Shown: piece by piece, positions 1 through 9,191 of the stretch
Layout: every line of letters starts with the position of its first letter
Numbering within the stretch: position 1 is the first letter of the stretch
From: Candidatus Helarchaeota archaeon
Lineage (GTDB): Archaea > Asgardarchaeota > Lokiarchaeia > Helarchaeales > HEL-GB-A
DNA: 9,191 nt
Assembly: GCA_013375405.1 (NCBI GenBank)
Contig: JABXJU010000182.1
Coordinates: 1-9,191 of the forward strand
Reading direction: 5' to 3'
The notes under the pieces: generated by a model
Database searches by the model: none
What the model saw: the letters and a program-made list of their open reading frames with translations, nothing else
Told to the model about the DNA's origin: nothing
Position numbers and translations under genes: made by a program

Positions 1-77
1 CAGCAGAATTAATTTGGGTTGTGCCATTACACACATTTTGGAAAAACGATAGAATTTACTTGACATTAAAGGAAACT
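1..77. repeat. Terminal direct repeat, left copy (circularity overlap)
   Basis: Identical base for base to 9115-9191. A perfect 77-bp overlap at the two contig ends is the usual sign of a circular molecule opened at an arbitrary point, and 77 is a common assembler k-mer size. The true circle is then about 9,114 bp. The cut lies inside a gene that reads straight through the join, which supports circularity over a real terminal repeat. Confidence 0.95.
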
Positions 78-143
78 CTTGATAAAAACTTTATTAATTG
101 GAAAATCGACATTACTTTGCTTATAAAAGAAAAAGGAGATTAA
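1..143 (+). CDS. 3' part of junction-spanning 95-residue protein of unknown function
   Basis: This is the C-terminal part of the gene that starts at 8970 and crosses the circle junction. The reading frame enters at base 3 (codons from GCA at 3-5) and ends at TAA 141-143. Joined to the right-hand part it gives 288 nt, 95 residues. The visible part begins AAELIWVVPLHTFWKNDRI and ends LLIKEKGD. It has a hydrophobic, aromatic-rich centre (FGFFAAELIWVVPLHTFW) followed by a charged tail, but no family I recognise. The AAAGGAG at its 3' end (132-138) serves as ribosome binding site for the next gene, which starts 4 nt after the stop, so the two are probably translated together. Confidence 0.8.
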   Translation, partial: AELIWVVPLHTFWKNDRIYLTLKETLDKNFINWKIDITLLIKEKGD

Positions 144-147
144 ACAA

Positions 148-309
148 ATGCCTGATGCAACCTTTATTATTCGAGGAAGTATAGAAGATTTTACAAGACT
201 CGATAATCTTTACAAAAGTCTAAAACGTGAAGGCGACAAATTACTATCTGCATGGTCTATCGATGTAGAAGTAAAGTATACCGAAAAGAAAGGAGAGAAA
301 CCCGATTAA
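148..309 (+). CDS. Small hypothetical protein, 53 residues
   Basis: ATG at 148 is preceded by AAAGGAGA (132-139) at normal spacing and ends with TAA at 307-309. The protein starts MPDATFIIRGSIEDF, is mixed alpha/beta in composition with a lysine- and glutamate-rich C-terminus (EKKGEKPD), and has no signal peptide or membrane span. It lies 4 nt after the preceding gene and 2 nt before the nuclease gene, so it belongs to the same operon. I do not recognise the family. Its place next to the nuclease suggests a partner or regulator, but nothing in the sequence proves that. Confidence 0.8.
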   Translation: MPDATFIIRGSIEDFTRLDNLYKSLKREGDKLLSAWSIDVEVKYTEKKGEKPD

Positions 310-311
310 TT

Positions 312-737
312 ATGCCAGGCAAATTTAATTATAAGGTTCTCAGAAAATACCCCCATTTAATAGGTGAAGATACCGAAGTCTGGACCCGATTTATCAAAAA
401 ATTCCCTCAAAGATTTGACACTGTTGATTATGATGTTTTGGTCGGAAAAGGTGTCGATACCTCCACCATTTCTGATATAAAATTTCAGCAGTATTGGTCA
501 AATCTTACAAAAAAACGAATTGATGTAATTGGTTGGAAAAATGAAATTTGTACTATTATTGAAGTCAAAAAAAGAGTCTCTCTCATGACACTAGGACAGA
601 TTTTAGGATACCGATTCCTATTTGGTAGAGAACATCCTGAAATAACACTTGTCAGGGCTTTAATAGTTTGTTCTACAATTGACCAAGACGATAGCGATGT
701 TCTCGATCATTATGGCATAGAATTTGTAATCGTCTGA
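312..737 (+). CDS. Putative PD-(D/E)XK nuclease (resolvase- or RecB-like), 141 residues
   Basis: The protein shows the core pattern of the PD-(D/E)XK nuclease superfamily: an upstream acidic residue (E22), KRID with D71 on one beta strand, then IIEVK with E84 and K86 on the next (D-x12-E-x-K), and Q96-x3-Y100 in the following helix, like the QxxxY motif of RecB-type nucleases. A hydrophobic strand, ALIVC (116-120), follows, and the chain ends in EFVIV. Such enzymes cut DNA using divalent metal ions; small ones act as junction resolvases, restriction enzymes or repair nucleases. The ATG at 312 gives 141 residues. A GTG at 252 would extend it by 20, but that stretch lies wholly inside the preceding gene and is basic and unlike the rest. 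The nearest AGGAG (291-295) is far from the ATG, so translation may depend on coupling. Substrate unknown; a role in resolving replication products fits the adjacent origin-like region. Confidence 0.65.
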   Translation: MPGKFNYKVLRKYPHLIGEDTEVWTRFIKKFPQRFDTVDYDVLVGKGVDTSTISDIKFQQYWSNLTKKRIDVIGWKNEICTIIEVKKRVSLMTLGQILGYRFLFGREHPEITLVRALIVCSTIDQDDSDVLDHYGIEFVIV

Positions 738-893
738 TCACTAACATTAACCTACTCGGCTGAACCGCTTCTTCCTCGTTCCCTTCCTCCTGATGTCCAA
801 GACGTTTTTACCCATCCACCACCACTTCACTCGGCGGCGGTTCACGCCTCGCATTTCTCTACTAATTCACGCTATAATAAATATTAGTTGTAA

Positions 894-941
894 CCGACTA
901 AAAAAATACCAGTGTGAAACACACTCGTATTTTTTTGTCGG
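894..941. terminator. Long near-perfect hairpin, probable bidirectional terminator
   Basis: CCGAC at 894-898 pairs with GTCGG at 937-941. With one bulged T (899), AAAAAAATAC then pairs with GTATTTTTTT, followed by a C-C mismatch and AGTGTG-AAA-CACACT. The stem is about 21 paired bases with a 3-nt loop at 917-919. A-rich and T-rich arms on either side of a GC-richer tip are typical of terminators working in both directions. A TATAAT box at 873-878 without a good -35 lies just upstream. A single-strand replication signal is an alternative. Confidence 0.65.
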
Positions 942-1011
942 CATTTATAACAAAGAAATATATTTTCTAATGACAAAAAACATTACCCCACCCAGCTACA
1001 CTCGTGTCCTC

Positions 1012-1031
1012 GGCGGCAGGCAGTAGAAGAC
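1012..1031 (+). repeat. 20-bp perfect inverted repeat, left arm
   Basis: GGCGGCAGGCAGTAGAAGAC here is the exact reverse complement of 1218-1237. The arms are 186 nt apart and enclose a second inverted pair (1073-1083/1111-1121), a palindrome (1145-1154) and a small hairpin (1162-1174). A transcript or single DNA strand could fold this into one branched structure. Confidence 0.85.
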
Positions 1032-1072
1032 AGCTCCGCAAGGTTTTGTGAATATATGCCAGGCAAGACGAA

Positions 1073-1121
1073 CAGTTCAGCATAATAATCATAAAAAAAA
1101 TAGGATAGACATGCTGAACTG
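1073..1121. repeat. 11-bp inverted repeat nested in the larger one
   Basis: CAGTTCAGCAT (1073-1083) and ATGCTGAACTG (1111-1121) are perfect complements with a 27-nt A-rich loop. The heptamer GACGAAC occurs in direct orientation at the outer edge of the left arm (1067-1073) and directly after the right arm (1121-1127). The direct-plus-inverted arrangement suggests a protein binding site. Confidence 0.75.
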
Positions 1122-1217
1122 ACGAACGTGCAAAAATAGCTAAGGCAAATTTGCATTGGAACTCACTTCGTGAGCATTTATTCTTTTTTCTTTTTCCGCT
1201 TTTTTGCCCGTTCTTTC

Positions 1218-1237
1218 GTCTTCTACTGCCTGCCGCC
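1218..1237 (-). repeat. 20-bp perfect inverted repeat, right arm
   Basis: GTCTTCTACTGCCTGCCGCC is the reverse complement of 1012-1031. It sits inside a tract (1181-1264) in which about 85 percent of bases are pyrimidines. Confidence 0.85.
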
Positions 1238-1291
1238 TCGTCCCCTCGTTCCGCGCCCCACCCCAAGAAAATATATTTCCTGATTATTCAG

Positions 1292-1307
1292 TGTTTACAC
1301 AGTAAAA
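1292..1307 (+). promoter_or_regulatory. Operator-like 16-bp repeat, copy 1
   Basis: TGTTTACACAGTAAAA occurs here and at 8950-8965. It contains the inverted repeat TTTAC-ACA-GTAAA, as expected of a site for a dimeric regulator. This copy overlaps the -35 box (TTTACA) of the promoter at 1294-1323, so binding here would block that promoter. Confidence 0.6.
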
Positions 1308-1323
1308 ACTTTTTTTTTATAAT
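1294..1323 (+). promoter_or_regulatory. Sigma-70-type promoter, upstream of a tandem pair
   Basis: TTTACA (1294-1299), an 18-bp T-rich spacer and a perfect TATAAT (1318-1323) predict a start near 1330. It reads toward the gene at 1496 and overlaps the operator-like repeat. Confidence 0.55.
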
Positions 1324-1337
1324 TTTTCATTTTTTAC

Positions 1338-1366
1338 TTGACTTTTATATTTATTTTTCTTATATT
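1338..1366 (+). promoter_or_regulatory. Sigma-70-type promoter, downstream of a tandem pair
   Basis: TTGACT (1338-1343), 17 bp, then TATATT (1361-1366) predicts transcription from about 1373 and a leader of roughly 120 nt before the gene at 1496. The 17 bases around the -35 (1332-1348) recur exactly at the promoter at 2037-2053, so the two may be controlled together. Confidence 0.7.
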
Positions 1367-1410
1367 TAACTAAAAGCGAGAAATCAAAAATGTATTTTTA
1401 AATTTTGGAG

Positions 1411-1469
1411 GGCATTAGTCGGGTTAGCGCAGTTTCTTAACATTCTGCGCCTCGCTCCCGGCTTATGCC
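1411..1469 (+). promoter_or_regulatory. Leader stem-loop with T-rich tail; possible attenuator
   Basis: The outer stem pairs 1411-1423 with 1457-1469 (12 of 13 pairs, one of them G-U). An inner stem GCGCAG (1427-1432) with CTGCGC (1445-1450) closes a 12-nt loop. The asymmetric internal loop is TTA against CTCGCT. The tail TTTTCTATTTTT leads to the ribosome binding site at 1484. A GC-rich stem plus T-tract between promoter and gene fits a terminator or attenuator. GGGTTAGCGCAG within it resembles a tRNA D-arm, but no full tRNA folds. Confidence 0.6.
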
Positions 1470-1495
1470 TTTTCTATTTTTATGAGGTGGAAAAA

Positions 1496-1846
1496 ATGAG
1501 TGAACTAAAAGAAGAAAGACGTTTTTATAATTCTGTGTTATTAGCAGGATACGTTCAAAATTATCTTGCTAATATTGAGAATCTAAAGGAGTACAAAGAA
1601 TCTCAAGTTAGAGTTTTCTTTTTCGTTCAACGTAAAGAAGGAGCATACTTCTTCAACTTGAGTTCCTGTAAGTTATACTGGGATGATGATCTAACCGACG
1701 GTCATTTTTCAAACGCTGATCAAGACGAACTTTGGCAAAACAGGGAAGTCCTTGGAGAAGTCATTATCAAAATTGCCACCAGAAAAAAACGATTGTTCTT
1801 CAAAACATTCGATGAATTCCTCACAGCCATAACAAAAGACTTTTGA
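1496..1846 (+). CDS. Hypothetical protein, 116 residues, first gene after the control region
   Basis: ATG at 1496 lies 5 nt after GAGGTGG (1484-1490), a good ribosome binding site, and the gene ends with TGA at 1844-1846. A GTG at 1487 would add three residues but is part of that binding site. The protein is soluble and charged, begins MSELKEERRFYNSVLLAGY, has beta-strand-like stretches (VRVFFFVQ, AYFFNLSS), an acidic WDDDLTDGHF segment, and a basic patch, TRKKRLFF, before a C-terminal helix. No catalytic motif or DNA-binding domain is evident and I do not recognise the family. It has its own pair of promoters, a structured leader and a terminator-like hairpin 18 nt downstream, so it is probably a separately regulated early gene. 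Confidence 0.8.
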   Translation: MSELKEERRFYNSVLLAGYVQNYLANIENLKEYKESQVRVFFFVQRKEGAYFFNLSSCKLYWDDDLTDGHFSNADQDELWQNREVLGEVIIKIATRKKRLFFKTFDEFLTAITKDF

Positions 1847-1862
1847 TAATTTTAACAATTAA

Positions 1863-1898
1863 CGGGCGGGGGTTCGATTCCCCCGCCTTTCTCTTCTT
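1863..1898 (+). terminator. GC-rich hairpin identical in form to a tRNA T-arm; terminator or attachment site
   Basis: GGCGGGGG (1865-1872), loop TTCGATT and CCCCCGCC (1880-1887) form a perfect 8-bp GC stem followed by TTTCTCTTCTT, which fits an intrinsic terminator for the gene ending at 1846. The core GGTTCGATTCC also matches the tRNA T-loop consensus exactly, and GCCTTTC would fall at the 3' acceptor strand. Phage and plasmid attP sites often copy a tRNA 3' end, so this could be an attachment site for the recombinase encoded at 2809. No complete tRNA is present. Confidence 0.6.
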
Positions 1899-1942
1899 AC
1901 TGCAAAATAAGGATTAATACATTTTTCAAAATCGCGTCCTAT

Positions 1943-1970
1943 GTGTCGCATATTGAACATTATACGACAT
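1943..1970. other. dif-like 28-bp tyrosine-recombinase core site
   Basis: Two 11-bp arms, GTGTCGCATAT (1943-1953) and TTATACGACAT (1960-1970), are imperfect inverted repeats around a 6-bp centre, TGAACA. This is the 11-6-11 layout of Xer (dif) sites. By my alignment 19 of 28 positions match E. coli dif, and the left arm shares TCGCATA with XerC arms of plasmid dif sites. It could serve dimer resolution or integration, using the encoded recombinase or host Xer proteins. Confidence 0.5.
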
Positions 1971-2031
1971 ACTTCTCAAGTGATCATAAATTGTTAATTT
2001 TTTATAGCGACATTATAAATATATTAATTTG

Positions 2032-2071
2032 CGAAATTTTACTTGACTTTTATTTCGTTATTTATTACCTT
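2032..2071 (+). promoter_or_regulatory. Promoter with overlapping inverted repeat, before the small-gene cluster
   Basis: TTGACT (2043-2048) is followed after 17 bp by the weak -10 TACCTT (2066-2071), upstream of the gene at 2104. CGAAAT (2032-2037) and ATTTCG (2052-2057) form an inverted repeat that straddles the -35, like an operator. Bases 2037-2053 are identical to 1332-1348 at the other promoter. Confidence 0.55.
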
Positions 2072-2103
2072 ATTTATATCACAATTACGCAAAAGGATCA
2101 ATA

Positions 2104-2250
2104 ATGCCAAAATACAATGTTTACGATAAGGAAACTAAACTTTCAAGAATTATAACTGCACCCAACAAAGAAGTAGCCCTGCATTTAGCCCTTAAAGCTA
2201 AAGGCAAGTTCGGAGTATTTCATATAACAAAAATTAAAGATCATAAATAA
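2104..2250 (+). CDS. Small basic hypothetical protein, 48 residues
   Basis: ATG at 2104 follows AAAAGGAT (2090-2097) at normal spacing; TAA at 2248-2250. The protein starts MPKYNVYDKETKLSR and is lysine-rich, with an alanine/leucine helix in the middle (EVALHLALKAKG) between two short strands, a beta-alpha-beta pattern. No known motif. It is the first gene after the promoter at 2043 and opens a run of five small genes that leads into the recombinase, so it may be a regulatory or DNA-binding microprotein; that is only a guess from size, charge and place. Confidence 0.75.
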   Translation: MPKYNVYDKETKLSRIITAPNKEVALHLALKAKGKFGVFHITKIKDHK

Positions 2251-2270
2251 TTTTTACTTATTCCAAATTT

Positions 2271-2405
2271 ATGAATGACGATATACCTGTTCTTTGCCCT
2301 AATTGTCATGGGTATTTATGTGTTAATTGGACCAAAATGCGTGCATATTGCTACGTCTGTAAATTATGGTTTACATTAACTTGGGGAGATAAAAATGACA
2401 AATAA
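2271..2405 (+). CDS. Zinc-ribbon microprotein, 44 residues
   Basis: This reading frame runs from ATG 2271 to TAA 2403-2405 and carries CPNC (C9, C12) and CYVC (C27, C30), two CxxC knuckles 14 residues apart, the pattern of a zinc ribbon. Nearly the whole protein is the ribbon, with W20 and W33 flanking the second knuckle. Its last 11 nt overlap the start of the next gene, so the two are probably translationally coupled. There is no clear ribosome binding site before the ATG, the main doubt about the start. Zinc ribbons of this size usually bind nucleic acid or protein partners; the target is unknown. Confidence 0.7.
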   Translation: MNDDIPVLCPNCHGYLCVNWTKMRAYCYVCKLWFTLTWGDKNDK

Positions 2406-2595
2406 CAATAAAATTGATTTATCTAAAATTTTAACATCAATAGATATAATTAATTTTTTTAAACATCTACAACCTGAAACAAAAGTTCTTATTCGTCATA
2501 ATTACAAAGATTATAAAATATCACGTTTTACTACTGAAGTTATAAAAGGTGAAACTATGGTAATTATTAATCATTTCCCACATCCTATTAAATAA
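2395..2595 (+). CDS. Hypothetical protein, 66 residues
   Basis: ATG at 2395 follows TTGGGGAG (2381-2388) at good spacing and overlaps the preceding gene by 11 nt; TAA at 2593-2595. The protein starts MTNNNKIDLSKILTSIDIINF and continues with a basic segment, LIRHNYKDYKISRFTTEVIKG, and a short hydrophobic strand (MVIINHF). It is soluble and rich in lysine, asparagine and isoleucine. No family recognised. The overlap and shared operon link it to the zinc-ribbon genes on both sides. Confidence 0.75.
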   Translation: MTNNNKIDLSKILTSIDIINFFKHLQPETKVLIRHNYKDYKISRFTTEVIKGETMVIINHFPHPIK

Positions 2596-2604
2596 TTATT
2601 TTTT

Positions 2605-2805
2605 ATGAAAAAAACAACTAGCTATTTACAGCTTAACATATTTAGTACCTACACGGATTGTTTGACTAGGATTAAATCTTGTTCTTTTTGTTTTTCCAGT
2701 GAAAACGTTATAAGTATTCTTTGCCGTTTGCCTGGTGAAAAGTATTCAGGTTTTACAATGCTCTGTGAAAAATGCAGAGATAATCCAAATATAAATCAGA
2801 GGTAA
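2605..2805 (+). CDS. Small protein with paired CxxC motifs, 66 residues
   Basis: ATG 2605 to TAA 2803-2805. CSFC (C26, C29) and CEKC (C54, C57) form two CxxC knuckles about 24 residues apart, consistent with a small zinc-binding fold; C19 and C41 are extra cysteines. Between the knuckles there is a strand-rich stretch, as in treble-clef or ribbon proteins. No ribosome binding site is visible before the ATG, so translation may rely on reinitiation from the preceding gene, whose stop is 9 nt away. AGAGG at its 3' end serves the recombinase gene, which starts 3 nt after the stop. Function unknown; perhaps a recombinase accessory factor or transcription regulator. Confidence 0.65.
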   Translation: MKKTTSYLQLNIFSTYTDCLTRIKSCSFCFSSENVISILCRLPGEKYSGFTMLCEKCRDNPNINQR

Positions 2806-2808
2806 CCA

Positions 2809-3393
2809 ATGATTATCACAATCAACGACAATGAAATTAAAATCTTACTAAACGCAGCACGTAAGAAAGATATCCGAGACTACACTATGATATTCCTTGC
2901 TCTTTCGGCTGGTCTCCGATGTAGTGAGGTTATAGGCTTGTTTAAAGAAGATATTGCCCCATGGGGAGAAGTTTCTCCAATTCTTACTGTCCCATGCCGA
3001 ATCGGTAAGGGACATAAAAAAAGAGAGATTCCTATAAACCAAGAAACTAGAGATATACTAACCAGATTTATTTATCATAAAAATAAGATAGGAGAATCTA
3101 CAGTCTCAGATAGCTATCTTTTTGTTTCTCATTACACACACAAACAATTATCTCCACGTGACTTTCAACGCATTGTTAAGGAACTTTCCACCACTTCTAT
3201 TAATAGGTCCATTTCACCTCACACACTCCGACATACTTTTGCAACCCGCCTTCTCAGACATACCAACCTCCGAGTTATTCAAGAACTTCTTGGACATTCA
3301 AATATTCAGACTACTCAGATTTACACACATGTTAACACAAACGATATTCAAAAAGCTATAGATGACTCAAAAATAGGATCACTAGTTACATGA
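2809..3393 (+). CDS. Tyrosine recombinase, catalytic domain only, 194 residues
   Basis: All catalytic residues of the phage integrase/Xer family are present: R37 in SAGLRCSEVIGL, a lysine in GKGHKKREIPI (K67-K71), H138 and R141 in PHTLRHTFATRL, H163 in LLGHSNIQTT, and the nucleophile Y172 in IYTHV. The enzyme should cut and rejoin DNA through a 3'-phosphotyrosine link. At 194 residues it starts almost directly at the catalytic domain and lacks the N-terminal core-binding domain of the usual 300-residue XerC/XerD; only FimB/FimE-type recombinases are normally this short. ATG 2809 has AGAGG (2797-2801) in front, and no longer in-frame start is likely because the preceding gene ends at 2805. Possible roles are dimer resolution, integration at a host site, or inversion; candidate sites lie at 1943-1970 and 1863-1898. 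Confidence 0.93.
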   Translation: MIITINDNEIKILLNAARKKDIRDYTMIFLALSAGLRCSEVIGLFKEDIAPWGEVSPILTVPCRIGKGHKKREIPINQETRDILTRFIYHKNKIGESTVSDSYLFVSHYTHKQLSPRDFQRIVKELSTTSINRSISPHTLRHTFATRLLRHTNLRVIQELLGHSNIQTTQIYTHVNTNDIQKAIDDSKIGSLVT

Positions 3394-3584
3394 ATTCAAA
3401 CAATTCCATCAAACATACAAAACAATGTAACCATAGAATTCTTACTTATCTTGGTATTCAGCAGACAACTTTTATGACCAAATTTATTTATCTTTGCAAT
3501 TGCCAAATTTGTAATTCCACAATAGCCATTGAGGAAGAATTTATCACAGACAAAACAGGAGCTCCATTTATTAATTCAAAATAA
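3390..3584 (+). CDS. Small cysteine-containing protein, 64 residues
   Basis: The ATG at 3390 overlaps the recombinase stop TGA (3391-3393) in an ATGA junction, a classic sign of translational coupling. The protein contains C13NH near the start and CNCQIC (C36, C38, C41) in the middle, a possible incomplete metal-binding cluster. The C-terminus is acidic (EEEFITDK). No membrane span is clear; FIYLCNC is short. I do not recognise a family. Coupling suggests that it is made in step with the recombinase and may act with it, in the manner of a recombination directionality or accessory factor, but this is inference. Confidence 0.7.
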   Translation: MNSNNSIKHTKQCNHRILTYLGIQQTTFMTKFIYLCNCQICNSTIAIEEEFITDKTGAPFINSK

Positions 3585-3600
3585 TTAAAATTAGGTTTAT

Positions 3601-4308
3601 ATGTCTATTATTAGAGTAGTTAAAAACAAATATAATCCTTACTTAATAATGAACAAAACAGGACTCAATGATAAAAGATTAAGTCTTAAAGCAAAAGGAT
3701 TACTTTGTTACCTTCTTAGTAAGCCTGACAACTGGTATGTCAACATAAATGAAATTGTTTCTAACAGTAATAATGGTATAAAATCTATTCATTCAGCTAT
3801 CAATGAATTAATTAAATTTGGATACATTTTTAAACACCAATTTAGAAATAATGACGGTAAATTTTATAACTATAACTACCTAATCTATGAAAAGCCTGAA
3901 AAATTAAAACCAATAAAAACAACTACTCAACCGAAACGCCCTTTTCGGCAAACGGATAAACGGATTCCCGATAACAGCACACTACTAATTAATAATAATA
4001 ACAAAGTAATTAAAGACTCTTTAACAACAATTATTAGACGACAAAATAATTTTTGTGATGTTCATGAAGATTTAAATCTTCAAAAACTAAAAAAAGAAAC
4101 AATTTTACTACTTCATGAACTTCATATCAAAAATTTCAAAAAACTATTTGATTCTTATTCTGTTTATGATATATTCGATTATGCTGATTGGATGCTTTCA
4201 TTCAAGTCAAGAATAAAAAATCCTACTGGTTTTCTTATTTCTGCTCTTAAAGAGAATTGGCTTGATTTAAATGAATTACATAAATCACAATTATCTAGAA
4301 ACACTTAA
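3601..4308 (+). CDS. Winged-helix replication initiator-like protein, 235 residues
   Basis: Residues 25-100 form a winged helix-turn-helix of the type found in plasmid and phage replication initiators: LSLKAKGLLCYLLS, DNWYVNINEI, then a recognition-helix segment with SIHSAINELIKFGYI and a wing ending FYNYNYLIYEKP. A polar, lysine- and asparagine-rich linker follows (about 98-150). The C-terminus has helical segments and KNPTGFLISALKENW (206-220), a motif common at the end of RepA- and DnaD-like proteins. It should bind origin DNA and recruit the host helicase or loader. No HUH rolling-circle motif is present. The ATG at 3601 has only a weak AGG upstream. The ParB-like gene follows after 8 nt. 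No iterons lie beside the gene; the nearest plausible origin is 738-1291. Confidence 0.75.
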   Translation: MSIIRVVKNKYNPYLIMNKTGLNDKRLSLKAKGLLCYLLSKPDNWYVNINEIVSNSNNGIKSIHSAINELIKFGYIFKHQFRNNDGKFYNYNYLIYEKPEKLKPIKTTTQPKRPFRQTDKRIPDNSTLLINNNNKVIKDSLTTIIRRQNNFCDVHEDLNLQKLKKETILLLHELHIKNFKKLFDSYSVYDIFDYADWMLSFKSRIKNPTGFLISALKENWLDLNELHKSQLSRNT

Positions 4309-4316
4309 GGAATACT

Positions 4317-5108
4317 ATGTCAAAACTTACATATGTTAATCTTGCTGACCTTGAATTACCTGAATTTCAAGCTCATAGACAGATTTCCGATGATTATATT
4401 CATGAAATTTCAGACAGTATAAGAGTAATCGGAGTTATTGAACCTTTAATTATTCGAGATACAGACCATGGTAAAGAAATTGTCTGCGGTTGTGTCAGGT
4501 ATCATGCTGCACGTTTAGCAGGTCTTAAAGCCGTCCCTTGTATCAATATGAGTTTGGATCCTAAAGCAGCGGAAGTGATAAAACTTCACGAAAATATAAA
4601 GAGGATTCCATTAGATCACATTGACCAGGGTGCAACTTTCATAATGATGATGGAAAAATTCCATATGACAGAGAAGTCCATCTCCGAGGTTGTCGGAAAA
4701 TCCATTGCTTACATATCACAACATATAAGTCTGGTCCGATTAGATAATGAACTTACCAAGGCAGTTAAAGACAAAAAAATTTCTTTTTCACAGGCAAGGG
4801 AACTCATGAGAGTCGATGATGAATCTGAAAGACTCAGACTTCTTAGTTATTGTCAGGAAGAAGGCGCCACAGTTTCTGTTCTTCAGAGATGGATTCAGGA
4901 TTATTTTAGAAATAAATCTGTATCATCACCGCAGGACTCTTCTGCACCCGAGCAAACTTATCATTATTCTGACCAACATAATCATCGTCTCTGCGAGGCT
5001 TGCGACAAGTCCGTAGAAATAGGTAAGATAAGACAGGTTTTTTATTGTCCAGCTTGTCATAAAGCTATAAAAGATGCAATTTCTGATGAAAAACGCAAGA
5101 TTAACTAA
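4317..5108 (+). CDS. ParB/Spo0J-family protein with C-terminal zinc ribbon, 263 residues
   Basis: The N-terminal domain has the ParB order: GVIEPLIIRD (39-48), the CTP-binding GxxRxxA-type box GCVRYHAARLAG (58-69; histidine replaces the usual second arginine), then HENIKRIPLDHID (91-103), matching ENxxR. A central helix-turn-helix follows (about 117-141, KSISEVVGKSIAYISQHISL). After a serine/proline linker, C226xxC229 and C244xxC247 form a zinc ribbon in place of the usual dimerisation domain. ParB proteins load on a centromere-like parS and act with a ParA ATPase; no ParA is encoded here, so it may use a host ParA or act as a transcription or replication regulator. TAAGGA at the stop of the preceding gene gives a good ribosome binding site. 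Confidence 0.88.
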   Translation: MSKLTYVNLADLELPEFQAHRQISDDYIHEISDSIRVIGVIEPLIIRDTDHGKEIVCGCVRYHAARLAGLKAVPCINMSLDPKAAEVIKLHENIKRIPLDHIDQGATFIMMMEKFHMTEKSISEVVGKSIAYISQHISLVRLDNELTKAVKDKKISFSQARELMRVDDESERLRLLSYCQEEGATVSVLQRWIQDYFRNKSVSSPQDSSAPEQTYHYSDQHNHRLCEACDKSVEIGKIRQVFYCPACHKAIKDAISDEKRKIN

Positions 5109-5280
5109 ATTACCCCTTAAAAAACTCTTTGGGAAGCCCATGGTTAACTTATTTTACCATTAGCCTATACTTTATACCTCTCTTTTTTGCCCCTATCTCC
5201 GTATTACCACCTCCTATTTACATATTTTTATCTAATTTTTTTCTTGACATGCTCATTTTTTGTTATTATTTTCCATTACC
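5109..5280 (+). promoter_or_regulatory. Gap between modules, with promoter TTGACA-17-TATTTT for the virion genes
   Basis: This 172-nt gap holds a consensus -35 TTGACA (5244-5249) and TATTTT (5267-5272) 17 bp later. Transcription should begin near 5279, only one or two bases before the ATG at 5281. No strong terminator is visible after the ParB-like gene; ATGGTTAA/TTACCAT (5150-5161 area) is a weak inverted repeat. The promoter would give the virion-like genes separate, probably late, expression. Confidence 0.65.
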
Positions 5281-5367
5281 ATGATCGAGACAATACTTAT
5301 GTTCGCCATTTTTATAGCAGCCGTTATCGCTGGAAAAGTTCTATATGATGATAGGATACAAAACTAA
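5281..5367 (+). CDS. Single-span membrane microprotein, 28 residues
   Basis: The frame reads MIETILMFAIFIAAVIAGKV and then a charged tail, YDDRIQN, ending at TAA 5365-5367. Residues 5-18 form a hydrophobic helix that would span or anchor in the inner membrane. The next gene starts two bases after the stop. There is no ribosome binding site (CCATTACC precedes the ATG), and the predicted transcription start is almost at the ATG, so it may be translated from a leaderless mRNA. Very short frames can arise by chance; position right behind a strong promoter and tight packing with another membrane microprotein argue that it is real. Small membrane proteins just before capsid genes are typical of internal-membrane phages such as PM2 and FLiP. 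Confidence 0.6.
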   Translation: MIETILMFAIFIAAVIAGKVLYDDRIQN

Positions 5368-5369
5368 CC

Positions 5370-5483
5370 ATGTCTAAATTTATTCTCACAATCTTAATTT
5401 TTCTAATCCTCGTGTTAATCATAGTAGTATTTCTTTTTATTTCATTTTTAACTGATTTACACCATAAATATAGGAGGTTTTAA
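5370..5483 (+). CDS. Single-span membrane microprotein, 37 residues
   Basis: The protein begins MSKF and is then almost entirely hydrophobic through residue 27 (ILTILIFLILVLIIVVFLFI and on), ending in a basic, histidine-containing tail DLHHKYRRF. It is a clear transmembrane helix with a positive C-terminus. The start lies two bases after the preceding stop, and the codons for the last residues (TATAGGAGG) provide the AGGAGG ribosome binding site of the next gene, so the three genes form one tight unit. A role as a virion membrane protein or a small holin is possible; the sequence does not decide between them. Confidence 0.7.
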   Translation: MSKFILTILIFLILVLIIVVFLFISFLTDLHHKYRRF

Positions 5484-5485
5484 TT

Positions 5486-5902
5486 ATGATAGTTCCTAGT
5501 GCTTCCAAGATTGCTGCCAAATGGGCAAGAGTTACACCTGAAAGATCCGTTGACTATGAAGATGGAGTTAGGAACCCTTTACGTGATTGGGCAGAAGAAA
5601 CAGCAGATTCCGAATCTCGTTACGAGGCTGGCATAAAATCTGCAATGGCTAGGAAGGCTTTTGGTAAGGGTGTAAAACGAGTCGGCACAGCCAAGCAGAA
5701 ATCTAAAACCATTTTAAAAGGAATACCTCGCTGGCCTGAAGGAGTCCGAGTTGCTGAAGCTGACATGCGGACCGGAATGGAAAAAGTAGTCTCCACTTTG
5801 GAAGGGATTACATTACCTCCACGATTTGAAACTGGAGACCCACGTAATATTGAACGTGTTAAGGTCATTCAGCAAGCTCTTCACAAGATGAAAACAGGTT
5901 AA
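5486..5902 (+). CDS. Basic 138-residue putative virion-associated protein with periodic aromatic-x2-Gly motif
   Basis: ATG 5486 follows a strong AGGAGG (5472-5477). The protein is basic, rich in Lys, Arg, Ala and Gly, and repeats a short pattern of an aromatic residue, two residues, then G-[VI]-[KR]: Y24..GVR, Y46..GIK, F59..GVK and W83..GVR, with W13 and W35 as extra aromatics. It ends with a LPPRF-x3-GDP segment (110-119) and a helix. It has no membrane span or enzyme motif. The arrangement reminds me of small proteins encoded beside capsid genes in uncultured phages, but I cannot name the family. Position between membrane microproteins and the proposed capsid gene, and its charge, would fit a scaffold, internal or DNA-binding virion protein. 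Codon use looks more GC-rich than in the replication genes. Confidence 0.8.
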   Translation: MIVPSASKIAAKWARVTPERSVDYEDGVRNPLRDWAEETADSESRYEAGIKSAMARKAFGKGVKRVGTAKQKSKTILKGIPRWPEGVRVAEADMRTGMEKVVSTLEGITLPPRFETGDPRNIERVKVIQQALHKMKTG

Positions 5903-5948
5903 TCACCTTTTCTTATACTCTTTTTTATTTACTCAGGAGTACTCAATT

Positions 5949-6890
5949 ATGCTCATTTCAAAACGTAACTTCTGCACTGTCATAGGCAATACAAATTTAG
6001 AACTCGAGGCAAAAACAGGTCAGGGTCTTGTCATAAAAAATATTATGATCTTCGATCCAACCTTAAATTATATCACAGTTTCCACAGCTAAAACTACTGT
6101 CGGTTATTTTCGTGTTGGTGGAGGTCTTGGAAATCATTTATCTTTTCATGTAGGTTCTTTTCAAGCAGCTTATCCGATGGTTTATGTTGGTAAAGTTGGC
6201 CAAGATACTCTTCTATCACATCTAAGTAAACTTGGATTGTTTGTTGGTTATCCTGTAGCCAGTGGCGAGAAGTTTTTAATAACCGGAGCTAAAAAATCCA
6301 CTTCTATTCAATGTGTTGAATACGAAATTTGGGATGCAGCTGACATTACACCTGAAATGGAAAATGGCTCTAAATCATCATCTTATTTATATGTTAATTA
6401 TGGTCAAACCGGTGCCAGTATAACTGTCGCTACTGATGTTGTTCTCAATACAGCCAACAATCCAGCAGAATTTCCTGACTTTCCTTATGGAAATATTGTC
6501 CCTGCCAATCGCAATATAGAACTTCATGGTATTCTTGCCTCTTCTGTTCATTATGCAGTCGATTCTAGTAATTATACTTCTACTGAATTTCTTAAATTTA
6601 TGCAGGGTAAAACTTTCCTCTTTGATGATGATAGACAGGGTCTTTTATATCATTCTCGTCCCACTATTGGTTCTTATGGTACACATCATGTTGCTTTAGG
6701 TAATACTCTTGCTGGTAACTATACACCCATAGACGTTAAATATCCTTTTATGTTTGACCCTCCTATTATTTTTCCACAGGGTCAGGAACTTACTGTATCT
6801 TGGAAATGCGGTGTATTAGGTACAACTGCATCTATAACTTCAGAATTCCAGGAAGTCGGTTTAATCCTGAAAATGACACCTGTTTCTTAA
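5949..6890 (+). CDS. Putative major capsid protein (jelly-roll type), 313 residues
   Basis: This is the largest protein of the element. AGGAG (5935-5939) precedes the ATG by 9 nt. It is beta-strand-rich and low in charge, with no enzyme motif, signal peptide or membrane span. The chain seems to fall into two halves of about 150 residues: the first ends with GEKFLITG (106-113), VEYEIWDAADI and YLYVNYG (146-152); the second contains FPDFPYGNIVP (175-185), FLKFMQGKTFLFDDDRQGLL and GQELTVSWK (278-286). The G-[EQ]-x-[FL]-x-[IV] strand repeated in both halves fits two stacked jelly rolls, as in capsid proteins of PM2 and FLiP (about 270-300 residues). Followed by minor structural-type genes. A single-jelly-roll or other beta structural protein is the alternative; fold prediction would settle it. 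Confidence 0.6.
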   Translation: MLISKRNFCTVIGNTNLELEAKTGQGLVIKNIMIFDPTLNYITVSTAKTTVGYFRVGGGLGNHLSFHVGSFQAAYPMVYVGKVGQDTLLSHLSKLGLFVGYPVASGEKFLITGAKKSTSIQCVEYEIWDAADITPEMENGSKSSSYLYVNYGQTGASITVATDVVLNTANNPAEFPDFPYGNIVPANRNIELHGILASSVHYAVDSSNYTSTEFLKFMQGKTFLFDDDRQGLLYHSRPTIGSYGTHHVALGNTLAGNYTPIDVKYPFMFDPPIIFPQGQELTVSWKCGVLGTTASITSEFQEVGLILKMTPVS

Positions 6891-6910
6891 TATTCATTTA
6901 TTTAAGTAGA

Positions 6911-6922
6911 GGTATATATACC
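6911..6922. promoter_or_regulatory. 12-bp palindrome touching a start codon
   Basis: GGTATATATACC is a perfect palindrome immediately before the ATG at 6923. Its left end overlaps the AGAGG ribosome binding site (6908-6912). As a small hairpin, or as a protein site in DNA, it could limit translation or transcription of the downstream genes. Confidence 0.45.
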
Positions 6923-7084
6923 ATGATTATTATTAAACAAATTTTAGAACTTTGTTCCGATCCAATAAGGCAAATGATTTTAGAATTTCTTAATTCTCTT
7001 AGAGATACAGCAGCTAAAACAGATAATCCTTTTGATGACCTTGCAGTTCATTTATTATTTATCATCCTTGGATTCCCCTATTAG
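6923..7084 (+). CDS. Small protein, 53 residues, first of a paralogous tandem pair
   Basis: ATG 6923 to TAG 7082-7084, with AGAGG ten bases upstream. It is amphipathic and helical: ILELCSDPIRQMILEFLNSL, then T33-D-N-P-F-D-D-L-A-V and a hydrophobic C-terminal helix, LLFIILGF. The next gene encodes a protein of exactly the same length that aligns without gaps with 16 identical residues of 53, so the two arose by duplication. The T/P-x-N-x-[FW]-D-[DE]-x-A-V-x-L-L motif is the best conserved part. The hydrophobic end could enter a membrane. It lies directly after the proposed capsid gene; a minor virion or membrane-associated role is likely but not shown. A longer in-frame extension back to 6800 lies inside the capsid gene and is rejected. 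Confidence 0.75.
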   Translation: MIIIKQILELCSDPIRQMILEFLNSLRDTAAKTDNPFDDLAVHLLFIILGFPY

Positions 7085-7120
7085 TTTAAACAAGTTTATT
7101 ATTCAGGATAATTTTTCAAC

Positions 7121-7282
7121 ATGGTTCTTTTGAGAATTATTTTAAATGAAGTATCTCCACAGCTCAGGAATGATATTTTAGCTTTTATTAGGTCCTTAAA
7201 ACAGGATCTTCCAACACCACCTAATGAGTGGGATGAATTCGCTGTTAAACTATTATACACTCTTTTTGAAATTGAGGATTAA
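7121..7282 (+). CDS. Small protein, 53 residues, second of a paralogous tandem pair
   Basis: ATG 7121 to TAA 7280-7282. CAGGA (7104-7108) is a distant, weak ribosome binding site. The protein starts MVLLRIILNEVSPQLR, has a helix ILAFIRSLKQDL, a proline-rich turn (PTPP), and N35-E-W-D-E-F-A-V-K-L-L before an acidic tail, EIED. Ungapped alignment with the gene at 6923 gives shared M1, I7, L8, S12, R16, I19, L20, F22, S25, L26, N35, D38, A41, V42, L44 and L45. The first copy ends hydrophobic and this one acidic, so the two may form a heteromer or have divided the role. The frame is short but the paralogy makes it convincing. Confidence 0.8.
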   Translation: MVLLRIILNEVSPQLRNDILAFIRSLKQDLPTPPNEWDEFAVKLLYTLFEIED

Positions 7283-7285
7283 AAT

Positions 7286-7645
7286 ATGTTTTATAAACTT
7301 TTTAGAGTTACTGGAGAAGCAAACAAAACAGTTTTTGATGATGGTCTTGTATCTACTATTGAGGAGCCTAGACGTATCAGGGCTATTATTATTAACGTTA
7401 ACACTTACAACAATAATACCATTGAAGGTTGGATTGAAACAACGAGAATTTTAGAGATTCCTGATGATTGTTGTTCCACACATGATTTTACTAATACAGC
7501 TACTTATTACCGCCCCACTACTAAATTAATCCGAATTCCTATTGAAGAAGACATTAAACCTGGGATGATTTTTAAAATTGCTATTAATTGTGGATCTGCA
7601 GCAACTAGTATTGATGGTGCTTATGAATATGATAAAGTTTCTTAA
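7286..7645 (+). CDS. Beta-rich putative minor structural protein, 119 residues
   Basis: ATG 7286 lies 3 nt after the preceding stop; TGAGGA (7273-7278) inside the preceding gene is its ribosome binding site. The protein alternates short hydrophobic strands with polar loops (RRIRAIIINVNTY, TIEGWIETTRIL, TKLIRIPIEEDI, MIFKIAINCG) and ends with AYEYDKVS. This would suit a single beta-barrel of about 120 residues, such as a penton or minor capsid protein. It has two adjacent cysteines (DDCCSTHD) and a third in NCG. It lies between the 53-residue pair and a second beta-rich protein, inside the proposed virion operon. I recognise no named family. Confidence 0.7.
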   Translation: MFYKLFRVTGEANKTVFDDGLVSTIEEPRRIRAIIINVNTYNNNTIEGWIETTRILEIPDDCCSTHDFTNTATYYRPTTKLIRIPIEEDIKPGMIFKIAINCGSAATSIDGAYEYDKVS

Positions 7646-7659
7646 TTGGAGGACCCCAC

Positions 7660-8133
7660 TTGCCCGGACCAGATCAGAAAATTAGAACTCCACTCATTCC
7701 CGAGCACGGTCTTGTTCTATCACCCGAGTTCATCGAACAATCTATTGTTACCCCTGATTTTATTCGTGCTTTTTGTCACCTTGTTGGTAAAGCCGATGAT
7801 CGTGGCATACTCATTAAGGCTACATCAGACGGCAGTCTACGTGTTGTTTCAGCAGGTGTTCCTTTCGAGTCTTATCTTGTATATTCCGGAACTGGTAACG
7901 ATGATTATATAGCAGCAAACATTAAAGAATTCACAGTAGCTTATAACGTTACCGATTTTCTTATTGAAACACACCCAGCACTTATTTCATTTCGAAATTT
8001 ACAGGGAGTTTGGCTGCAAGATAAATATTTGCCAGTCGGATTCCACTCAATTGATTTTGTTCATTATGGTTTCAGAATAAAAAATAAAACTGGTAGCAGT
8101 AATACAATTTGGGAAATAACCATTTACCGATAA
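7660..8133 (+). CDS. Beta-rich putative minor structural protein with TTG start, 157 residues
   Basis: The start is TTG at 7660: GGAGGA (7648-7653) stands 6 nt before it, the frame contains no ATG at all, and the codons read PGPDQKIRTPLIPEHG. The first 50 residues are proline-rich and partly helical. From about residue 50 there are beta strands: GILIKATSDGSLRVVSAG, IKEFTVAYNVTDFLIET, ALISFRNLQGVWL, SIDFVHYGFRIKNKT and a final IWEITIYR. This beta-sandwich layout with an IKNKTGSS-like loop near the end is common in phage spike and receptor-binding accessory proteins. It lies between a beta-barrel-type gene and the coiled-coil spike gene. The rare TTG start may keep its level low relative to the capsid gene. 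Exact role unknown. Confidence 0.72.
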   Translation: MPGPDQKIRTPLIPEHGLVLSPEFIEQSIVTPDFIRAFCHLVGKADDRGILIKATSDGSLRVVSAGVPFESYLVYSGTGNDDYIAANIKEFTVAYNVTDFLIETHPALISFRNLQGVWLQDKYLPVGFHSIDFVHYGFRIKNKTGSSNTIWEITIYR

Positions 8134-8139
8134 TTATTT

Positions 8140-8820
8140 ATGCCAAATACCTTTAACATATCCGTCAAACCTGAAATAGCTGCAGTTTCCGCACTTGTCA
8201 CCATTGTTGACACTGTTGTCGACGCAATCCGTGCAACCGATGTTCCCGGTATCAATTCCAATATTGATGCTAACGAGACTAAACTTATTATTATAGATAC
8301 CGTTTGTGATCAAATTCGTGATATAGATGTTCCAAATATTCAAGCTAATATAGATTCAAACGAAACCAAAATTGATACTGTCGACACTGTTGTTGATGCA
8401 ATACAAGTCAAAACTGATGGATTGCCTTATAAAATTCGAGGCGTTTTTTCAGTTGCTTATGAAATCTCAGATTCAGGTACTCTTTTAGATGTTATAAATA
8501 TCTCTGGACAGGGAAAACTTTTTTATATAGTTATTAGATGTGATAATGCTGGAGACACAGTCGAGGTAGTTCTTACAGTTGACAACGCCACTTCCAGAGC
8601 TTACGCATTTACAGGATCATCAGTATTTCAAGTTGTTTACTTAAGTGACGCATACTCATTAGTTAACGGTTTTGACTTAAATTCACAAGATGTTACAACC
8701 TCAGATATTAATTCCTTCAATCTTGAATTTGCAACCGCTTTACGTGTTCAATTTCGCCGTTCTGCAGGCACAAACGATAATGTCCGCTGTAAAGTCGGAT
8801 ATTCTTTGGACGATCTCTAG
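8140..8820 (+). CDS. Putative fibre or vertex-spike protein with 29-residue repeats, 226 residues
   Basis: Residues 23-96 contain about 2.5 copies of a 29-residue repeat: units begin at V23 (VDTVVDAI), I52 (IDTVCDQI) and V81 (VDTVVDAI), and each full unit has a V-P turn and a N-x-D-x-N-E-T-K segment. Regular hydrophobic spacing suggests a trimeric coiled-coil stalk, ending in QVKTDGLP, a phrase I associate with phage fibres. Residues 97-226 form a beta-rich head (GVFSVAYEISDSG, GQGKLFYIVI, VEVVLTVDNA, ALRVQFRRSAG, VRCKVGYSLDDL). A stalk plus globular head fits a host-binding spike. It is the last gene of the virion operon, ends at TAG 8818-8820, and has no ribosome binding site; the ATG is 6 nt after the preceding stop, so coupling is likely. 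Confidence 0.72.
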   Translation: MPNTFNISVKPEIAAVSALVTIVDTVVDAIRATDVPGINSNIDANETKLIIIDTVCDQIRDIDVPNIQANIDSNETKIDTVDTVVDAIQVKTDGLPYKIRGVFSVAYEISDSGTLLDVINISGQGKLFYIVIRCDNAGDTVEVVLTVDNATSRAYAFTGSSVFQVVYLSDAYSLVNGFDLNSQDVTTSDINSFNLEFATALRVQFRRSAGTNDNVRCKVGYSLDDL

Positions 8821-8969
8821 TTCCAACATTCTTTACTCTGTATACCTTAATTTTTCAAAGTATCATTTACCATACATATCATTTGACTTTAATATATCAA
8901 TTTATTAACTTCTAATATATTCCTATATAATATAATCAATAACTTACTATGTTTACACAGTAAAACTCA
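8821..8969 (+). promoter_or_regulatory. AT-rich gap with overlapping TATAAT boxes, before the junction-spanning operon
   Basis: This 149-nt gap contains TATAAT at 8926-8931 and again at 8931-8936, without a good -35 at 17 bp; TTGACT at 8883-8888 is too far upstream. Transcription would begin near 8943. No GC-rich terminator for the virion operon is visible, so readthrough is possible. A promoter lacking a -35 often needs an activator. Confidence 0.4.
8950..8965 (+). promoter_or_regulatory. Operator-like 16-bp repeat, copy 2
   Basis: TGTTTACACAGTAAAA, identical to 1292-1307, with internal inverted repeat TTTAC-ACA-GTAAA (8952-8964). It sits just downstream of the TATAAT boxes and 4 nt before the ATG at 8970, where a bound repressor or RNA-binding protein would block expression. 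Confidence 0.6.
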
Positions 8970-9191
8970 ATGAGAATTGGTACTCTAATTATTGAAGTTT
9001 ACGGAGAACTTTTAACAAAGCAAAGTATTGAAATTTTGCAAACTTCTATGTACCAGCCTTTAATTTCTGTTAGTGATAAATTTGATTTCGATTATAAACG
9101 ATTTGGCTTTTTTGCAGCAGAATTAATTTGGGTTGTGCCATTACACACATTTTGGAAAAACGATAGAATTTACTTGACATTAAAGGAAACT
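8970..9191 (+). CDS. 5' part of junction-spanning 95-residue protein of unknown function
   Basis: ATG 8970 opens a frame that runs off the window end and continues at base 78 (9115-9191 equals 1-77), stopping at 143. The whole protein has 95 residues, beginning MRIGTLIIEVYGELL. The N-terminal half is beta-like (TLIIEVYGELL, YQPLISVSDKFDF); the middle has the aromatic hydrophobic stretch FGFFAAELIWVV. No ribosome binding site is visible before the ATG; instead the operator-like 16-bp repeat ends 4 nt upstream. It is the first gene of an operon with the 53-residue protein and the nuclease. No family recognised. Confidence 0.75.
   Translation, partial: MRIGTLIIEVYGELLTKQSIEILQTSMYQPLISVSDKFDFDYKRFGFFAAELIWVVPLHTFWKNDRIYLTLKET
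9115..9191. repeat. Terminal direct repeat, right copy (circularity overlap)
   Basis: Exact copy of 1-77. Removing one copy leaves a 9,114-bp circle and restores an intact 95-residue reading frame across the join. Confidence 0.95.

Follow-up and report, generated by a model that had tools for sequence, protein, structure and literature searches.

What is the 9,191-nt contig JABXJU010000182.1 of a Candidatus Helarchaeota assembly (the window, meaning the whole stretch of DNA analysed), in which genes resembling a virion cassette stand beside plasmid-type replication genes? An earlier note made from the letters of this DNA had proposed a possible tailless virus, its jelly-roll capsid genes carried on a circle of plasmid type, and structure models, fold matches and homologues now support this. 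With a probability of about 0.87, the circle represents a small icosahedral virus without a tail that belongs to the Odin group, within the double jelly roll (DJR) lineage, most likely a bacteriophage able to persist as a plasmid. The folds of the major capsid protein (MCP) and of a minor protein, homology, synteny, circularity and the absence of Walker A motifs were computed here. Two features are given first.

1..9191 (no strand): circular genome of 9,114 bp, with an exact 77-bp terminal repeat (first and last 77 bases identical; 9115-9191 = 1-77)
5949..6890 (+): MCP with DJR fold, 313 aa, identified from homologues, an AlphaFold2 model and fold matches

The probable major capsid protein

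The AlphaFold2 model of the 313-aa protein reached a pLDDT of 91, and capsid proteins led the structure search made with it, the DJR proteins of STIV, PR772/PRD1 and PBCV-1 matching across the entire length, as the earlier note had suspected of this gene. FLiP and PM2 were not among the structure matches listed, which excludes nothing. Nothing significant was found for the protein in Pfam, PHROGs or NCBIfam (best PHROG E 0.009), and its profile matched no PDB chain sequence at E<=10. At least 164 homologues were recovered at E<=1e-3 from a protein database (1,178 candidates), and a wider profile gave 470 matches, the top 120 being listed in each case. Among the 120 listed for the first search, 32 (counted by hand and including the window) reach 8-10 kb in their longest contig, and the maximum contig is 18,134 bp. 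Several names in that list indicate metagenomes from marine sediment or the subsurface, and others indicate bacterial bins.

No homologue occurs in the 72,556 plasmid records of PLSDB, and the sole match in a phage collection of 50,697 records is Altivir_6_ACLF. Five scans of IMG/VR, at the sensitivity used, gave no relative (the patterns matched 7, 3, 6, 22 and 5 stretches), whereas one scan of genome bins gave 12 loci, which suggests that virus-finding pipelines miss this family. A scan of the Asgard phylum found a relative in one of 148 genomes, the already known bin of locus L006, and a scan of the class of a provirus host described below found one in 23 genomes, the host itself. In the MCP tree the window groups with P0002 (99/85) and with locus L002 (100/99), the deep branches being weak (31/48).

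The probable virion cassette

Nine tightly packed + strand open reading frames (ORFs) occupy 5281-8820, where the earlier note had placed eight to nine, and all gene-like ORFs of the circle share this strand. Besides the MCP, the cassette encodes two hydrophobic proteins (28 and 37 aa), a basic protein of 138 aa and proteins of 53, 53, 119, 157 and 226 aa:

5281..5367 (+): hydrophobic microprotein, 28 aa, Kyte-Doolittle hydropathy 2.23
5370..5483 (+): hydrophobic microprotein, 37 aa, Kyte-Doolittle hydropathy 3.69
5486..5902 (+): basic protein, 138 aa, isoelectric point 10.0, proposed DNA-condensing or packaging factor, fitting the conserved pre-MCP protein of the Odin group
6923..7084 (+): acidic protein 1, 53 aa, tblastn matches in L002 and L005
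7121..7282 (+): acidic protein 2, 53 aa, tblastn matches in L004 and L005
7286..7645 (+): single jelly-roll protein, 119 aa, with profile and fold matches
7660..8133 (+): conserved virion-cassette protein, 157 aa, TTG start, homologues in related loci
8140..8820 (+): candidate spike or vertex fibre protein, 226 aa, 31-32% identity in L003-L005, internal 24-nt repeat

The order of small protein, 313-aa family and 119-aa family is repeated in related loci. The 138-aa family directly precedes the MCP in all 14 genomes compared (by profile or tblastn), weakly in L006 and L001, and with the contigs of L003 and L005 starting inside that gene. The 119-aa protein, whose family profile gave 610 matches, was modelled as a single jelly roll (pLDDT 92.5) and is likely a minor capsid or penton protein. 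A role as spike or vertex fibre is a candidate function for the 226-aa protein. The two 53-aa queries match one identical place in L005.

In six of 11 relatives (L001, L002, L004, L010, L011, L013) the 450 nt that precede the gene of the basic protein contain small hydrophobic ORFs, which were not found there in the other five (L006-L009, L012); they were matched by position and not by sequence, and AT-rich DNA yields such ORFs by chance. In L001 (65-247, 60 aa) and L010 (367-468, 33 aa) such an ORF immediately precedes the gene of the basic protein, an arrangement also seen in the window; these could possibly be membrane or lysis proteins. The internal membrane that the earlier note read into the virion is a possible feature.

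Replication, maintenance and packaging

Outside the cassette, the winged-helix initiator, ParB and tyrosine recombinase named in the earlier note all have family matches, and a nuclease-like gene is also present:

312..737 (+): PD-(D/E)XK-like nuclease of 141 aa, similar to NucS at E 2e-4, which falls far short of the curated cut-off
2809..3393 (+): Xer-like tyrosine recombinase of 194 aa, consisting of the catalytic domain alone, Phage_integrase (Pfam) 5e-38
3601..4308 (+): winged-helix plasmid-type replication initiator, HTH_36 (Pfam E 2e-7) and PHROG replication families
4317..5108 (+): ParB-like protein with C-terminal Cys motifs, ParB_N 4e-15 and HTH_ParB 1e-17 (Pfam)

The PD-(D/E)XK label is partly our interpretation of the motif; homologues of this protein occur in L003-L005, L007, L008, L012 and L013. 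The recombinase matches TIGR02225 at 1.5e-41, below the equivalog cut-off. An initiator-like protein is present in 127 of the 72,556 plasmid records at E<=1e-3, with 80% coverage reached in none. Fourteen window proteins were scanned with Pfam, the ORFs outside the scan being one of 95 aa across the circle's joint and others of at most 66 aa. No rolling-circle Rep family was found among the 14, no lysis gene was recognised among the proteins scanned, and a packaging ATPase was sought without success, there being no Walker A motif ([AG]xxxxGK[ST]) in window ORFs of at least 60 codons and no P-loop family among the proteins scanned. In eight relatives scanned alike, the Walker A pattern occurred once each in L008 and L012 and looks incidental.

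Proposed affiliation with the Odin group

Yutin et al. 2018 (PMC5894146) describe the Odin group as contigs of 7-11 kb from marine sediment that carry direct or inverted repeats and encode a DJR MCP resembling those of STIV and PM2, preceded by a conserved small protein, along with a single jelly-roll protein, ParB and PD-(D/E)XK nucleases, with helix-turn-helix (HTH) and integrase genes sporadic, the packaging ATPase absent and one provirus reported in bacterial surroundings. The window agrees in size and terminal repeat (9,114-bp circle), in a DJR MCP with STIV among its fold matches, in the basic 138-aa family directly before it, in the single jelly roll (119 aa), in ParB together with the nuclease (a NucS-like match far below cut-off, conserved in relatives) and in the packaging ATPase not being found by the Walker A and P-loop scans; the sediment and subsurface names of several relatives are a further likeness. 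It differs in its short Xer recombinase and winged-helix Rep, integrase and HTH genes being only sporadic in the Odin group. The window matches the group in architecture, and its membership is proposed on that ground. What is new is this genome as a member: the term 'undescribed' used in the earlier note holds for the genome and fails for the kind, which is already named, if poorly known, because the window agrees in gene content and layout with the Odin group (PMC5894146), in which ParB, HTH and sporadic integrase genes were already known.

Three other kinds of small virus or virus-like element share some of these traits and diverge in others. The genomes of FLiP and PhiCjT23 are about 9 kb in size. 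Like the window, these single-stranded DNA phages combine a DJR capsid with a small circle, and FLiP likewise lacks the packaging ATPase according to Yutin et al. 2018 (PMC5894146); the FLiP group, however, has an M13-like rolling-circle Rep, whereas the window has an HTH_36 winged-helix initiator and no such Rep among its Pfam-scanned proteins, so this mark of the FLiP group (Finnlakeviridae) is not found in the window and the comparison with FLiP breaks down at replication, where the earlier note, too, had seen a different set of genes. PM2 (Corticoviridae) and NO16 ('Asemoviridae') are also small DJR phages but carry a packaging ATPase (FtsK-like in the PM2 group), which was not found here. 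The Charybdis elements (PMC12324425) are small, circular and virus-like, with no recognised hallmark genes; they measure about 4.6 kb, have two opposed gene clusters and a double-Greek-key protein and are marine only, in contrast to the 9,114-bp, single-strand layout of the window.

A related provirus in a dif-like site

One relative, L007, resides in a chromosome. Among the 12 loci recovered from genome contigs it is the one on a 73-kb contig, part of a metagenome-assembled genome (MAG) deposited as Deltaproteobacteria; the contigs of the others measure 3.7-11.7 kb.

L017 1085-12301 = contig 45084-56300: provirus of 11.2 kb, inserted in a bacterial chromosome at a dif-like site, exact 28-bp repeat

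The element spans 11,189 bp between exact 28-bp repeats at 45084 and 56273, the left one overlapping the end of dnaJ and the right one followed by a MobA-like gene. It contains the capsid genes, the nuclease, ParB and two HTH proteins that exceed their Pfam thresholds, as well as a possible lysis gene with a weak match to peptidase M15 that stays under the threshold. A mobA match was present at 20 loci from the same class. Seven of these show the empty site, with a dnaJ-mobA gap of 43-72 nt that contains variants of the repeat sequence; the remaining 13 comprise the host itself, seven that have mobA without a dnaJ match in the stretch examined and five that gave no match. The 24-nt core, AGTTWACATAATATATCTTATCAG, occurs in exactly one copy in 14 of 23 genomes of the class and in none of the other nine (reversed control 0). 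Since it is single-copy, conserved and carries a CATAA-N6-TTAT pattern, which we take to be the dif consensus, the insertion site is dif-like.

No relative of the window recombinase was detected in L007 (tblastn E<=0.01), nor any integrase by Pfam among 11 further proteins of the element (a few short ORFs lying outside the scan), and host XerCD is therefore the likely agent of insertion. Integration of the dif type has been proposed for the DJR phages NO16 (PMC9966536) and for PhiCjT23-like DJR phages (PMC9719478). The 119-aa-family protein of L007 is identical to P0191, which is present on seven contigs, the longest of 73,417 bp, and this speaks against a single misassembly. In the window and 12 other loci the dif-like host site was not found (best 9-10 mismatches in 28, or none within 10). 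The provirus lifestyle is a habit of the relative L007; the window has its own Xer and no such dif site.

The Altivir link

The capsid match in the phage collection is protein DAZ85544.1 of Altiarchaeum virus Altivir_6_ACLF (BK059159.1), with 33% identity over the whole protein and E 3e-43, and the same record was recovered again with two distant MCP relatives as queries. As in the window, small-basic-protein matches precede the MCP homologue (two weak copies) and a weak single jelly-roll match follows it, on the same strand; unlike the window, Altivir_6 is predicted to infect archaea, lacks a TTGAC(A/T) hexamer ahead of the operon and has a record of 4.6 kb. Rahlff et al. 2021 (PMC8324899) class it by sequence as a putative virus only, give it five protein clusters in common with Altivir_1_MSI and report intracellular particles of about 50 nm in host cells, not assigned to one virus. 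Altivir_1_MSI is a lytic archaeal virus imaged by fluorescence in situ hybridization, its virion structure unidentified as of 2023 according to Turzynski et al. 2023 (PMC10143303). We infer that Altivir_1_MSI carries an MCP homologue too. In the library searched, no paper mentions Altivir together with a jelly roll.

Candidate promoter and probable host

5244..5272 (+): sigma-70-like promoter TTGACA-17-TATTTT before the virion operon, in a 57-nt stretch 81% identical in the sister L002

The window is probably the virus of a bacterium, and an archaeal host is doubtful, although several points weigh on the archaeal side: Altivir_6 is assigned to archaea by spacers, as is Huginn, an Odin-group virus of Odinarchaeum (CRISPR spacers; Tamarit et al. 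2022, PMC9246712), and the close sister L002 is binned with Lokiarchaeota. Against an archaeal host stand the TTGACA-17-TATTTT sequence before the operon, common to the window and L002, the position of L007 inside a bacterial chromosome and the binning of sisters L003-L005 with Neomarinimicrobiota, binning of such short contigs being unreliable. Nine of 12 members (window, L002, L004, L006, L007, L008, L011, L012, L013) have a TTGAC(A/T) hexamer in the 260 nt preceding the gene of the basic protein, while L001, L009 and L010 do not, the count leaving out L003 and L005, whose contigs start inside that gene; these hexamers hint at bacterial hosts. The window promoter score was matched by 12% of shuffles and is not significant alone; the corresponding values are 0.6% for L004, 1.5% for L006 and 7.6-37% for the other six, so that most single cases are not significant. 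The promoter label shows no clustering in the MCP tree (all 500 label shuffles gave values as low), and promoter type therefore cannot date host switches. TTGACA-17-TAGAAT was found in L006, a circle of 8.9 kb from a Baldrarchaeota bin that may be a phage assigned to the wrong bin. That a single small DJR virus lineage infects both bacteria and archaea has, in our estimate, an even chance of being true.

Other observations touch on hosts. One Neomarinimicrobiota bin (G009; contigs C59, C72 and C231) holds three distinct family members, through either a shared host or composition-driven binning. In an ANME-1c MAG of Methanoxibalbensis ujae (G004), contigs C52 and C53 carry different MCP variants, C53 resembling L009; in L009 itself the cassette is followed by the gene of a 972-aa protein and lacks a preceding TTGAC(A/T).

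Alternative explanations and proposed life cycle

The circle might instead be a plasmid whose 'capsid' cassette gives a beta-rich product other than a virion, perhaps an enzyme resembling GH172/DUF2961, perhaps a surface structure, and DJR-type enzymes do rank just below the capsid proteins in the structure search with the 313-aa model. Yet the protein reaches the cut-off of no Pfam or NCBIfam enzyme family, the cassette also contains a single jelly roll and is syntenic with the spacer-defined putative virus Altivir_6, and the MCP occurs in no PLSDB plasmid, all of which makes such a plasmid improbable. Slightly less probable still is a virus satellite that has its own shell and needs a helper for entry or packaging. 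That neither a packaging ATPase nor a lysis gene was recognised in the window favours a satellite and counts against an autonomous virus, but the known Odin and FLiP groups are likewise without the ATPase (PMC5894146), and the window has replication as well as capsid genes. We know of no helper for the proposed satellite.

For the Odin-group virus preferred here, the gene families suggest a life cycle in which the winged-helix initiator would replicate a double-stranded DNA circle, with ParB and the Xer-like recombinase keeping it monomeric and inherited. The promoter at 5244 would drive the virion operon; the 313-aa DJR proteins would assemble into pseudo-hexameric trimers, vertices or spikes may be built by the 226-aa protein together with the 119-aa single jelly roll, and the basic 138-aa protein would condense the DNA, around which the shell would form without an ATPase motor.

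Non-coding elements

740..1480 (no strand): region with nested inverted repeats (I5, 20 nt, 100%; I7; I21), conserved gene not found, candidate replication or control region

Within this region, 947-1287 is a candidate origin, with inverted repeats nested in one another, of 20 nt (100%) and 22 nt (86%). An exact 16-bp repeat, TGTTTACACAGTAAAA, at 1292-1307 and 8950-8965, contains the palindrome TTTAC-ACA-GTAAA and flanks the nuclease cassette; similar pairs occur in L004 (522, 2053) and L005 (3053, 4584), spaced 1,531 bp apart in both, and the pair is a candidate operator-promoter or recombination site. The window has no tRNA and gave zero Rfam matches at gathering score. At 1861-1890 a GC-rich hairpin resembling a tRNA T-arm is followed by T-rich sequence; as a tRNA attachment site it was rejected, its 25-nt pattern occurring in none of the 245 genomes searched from the phylum to which the Neomarinimicrobiota bin belongs. 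The hairpin may represent a terminator or a remnant of an attachment site.

Implications

The precise ends of a provirus that sits in a bacterial chromosome are now available for an Odin-like virus, together with a confidently modelled capsid protein. The MCP homology also names a candidate coat protein in Altivir_6, a relative of Altivir_1_MSI, a virus seen to kill underground archaea.
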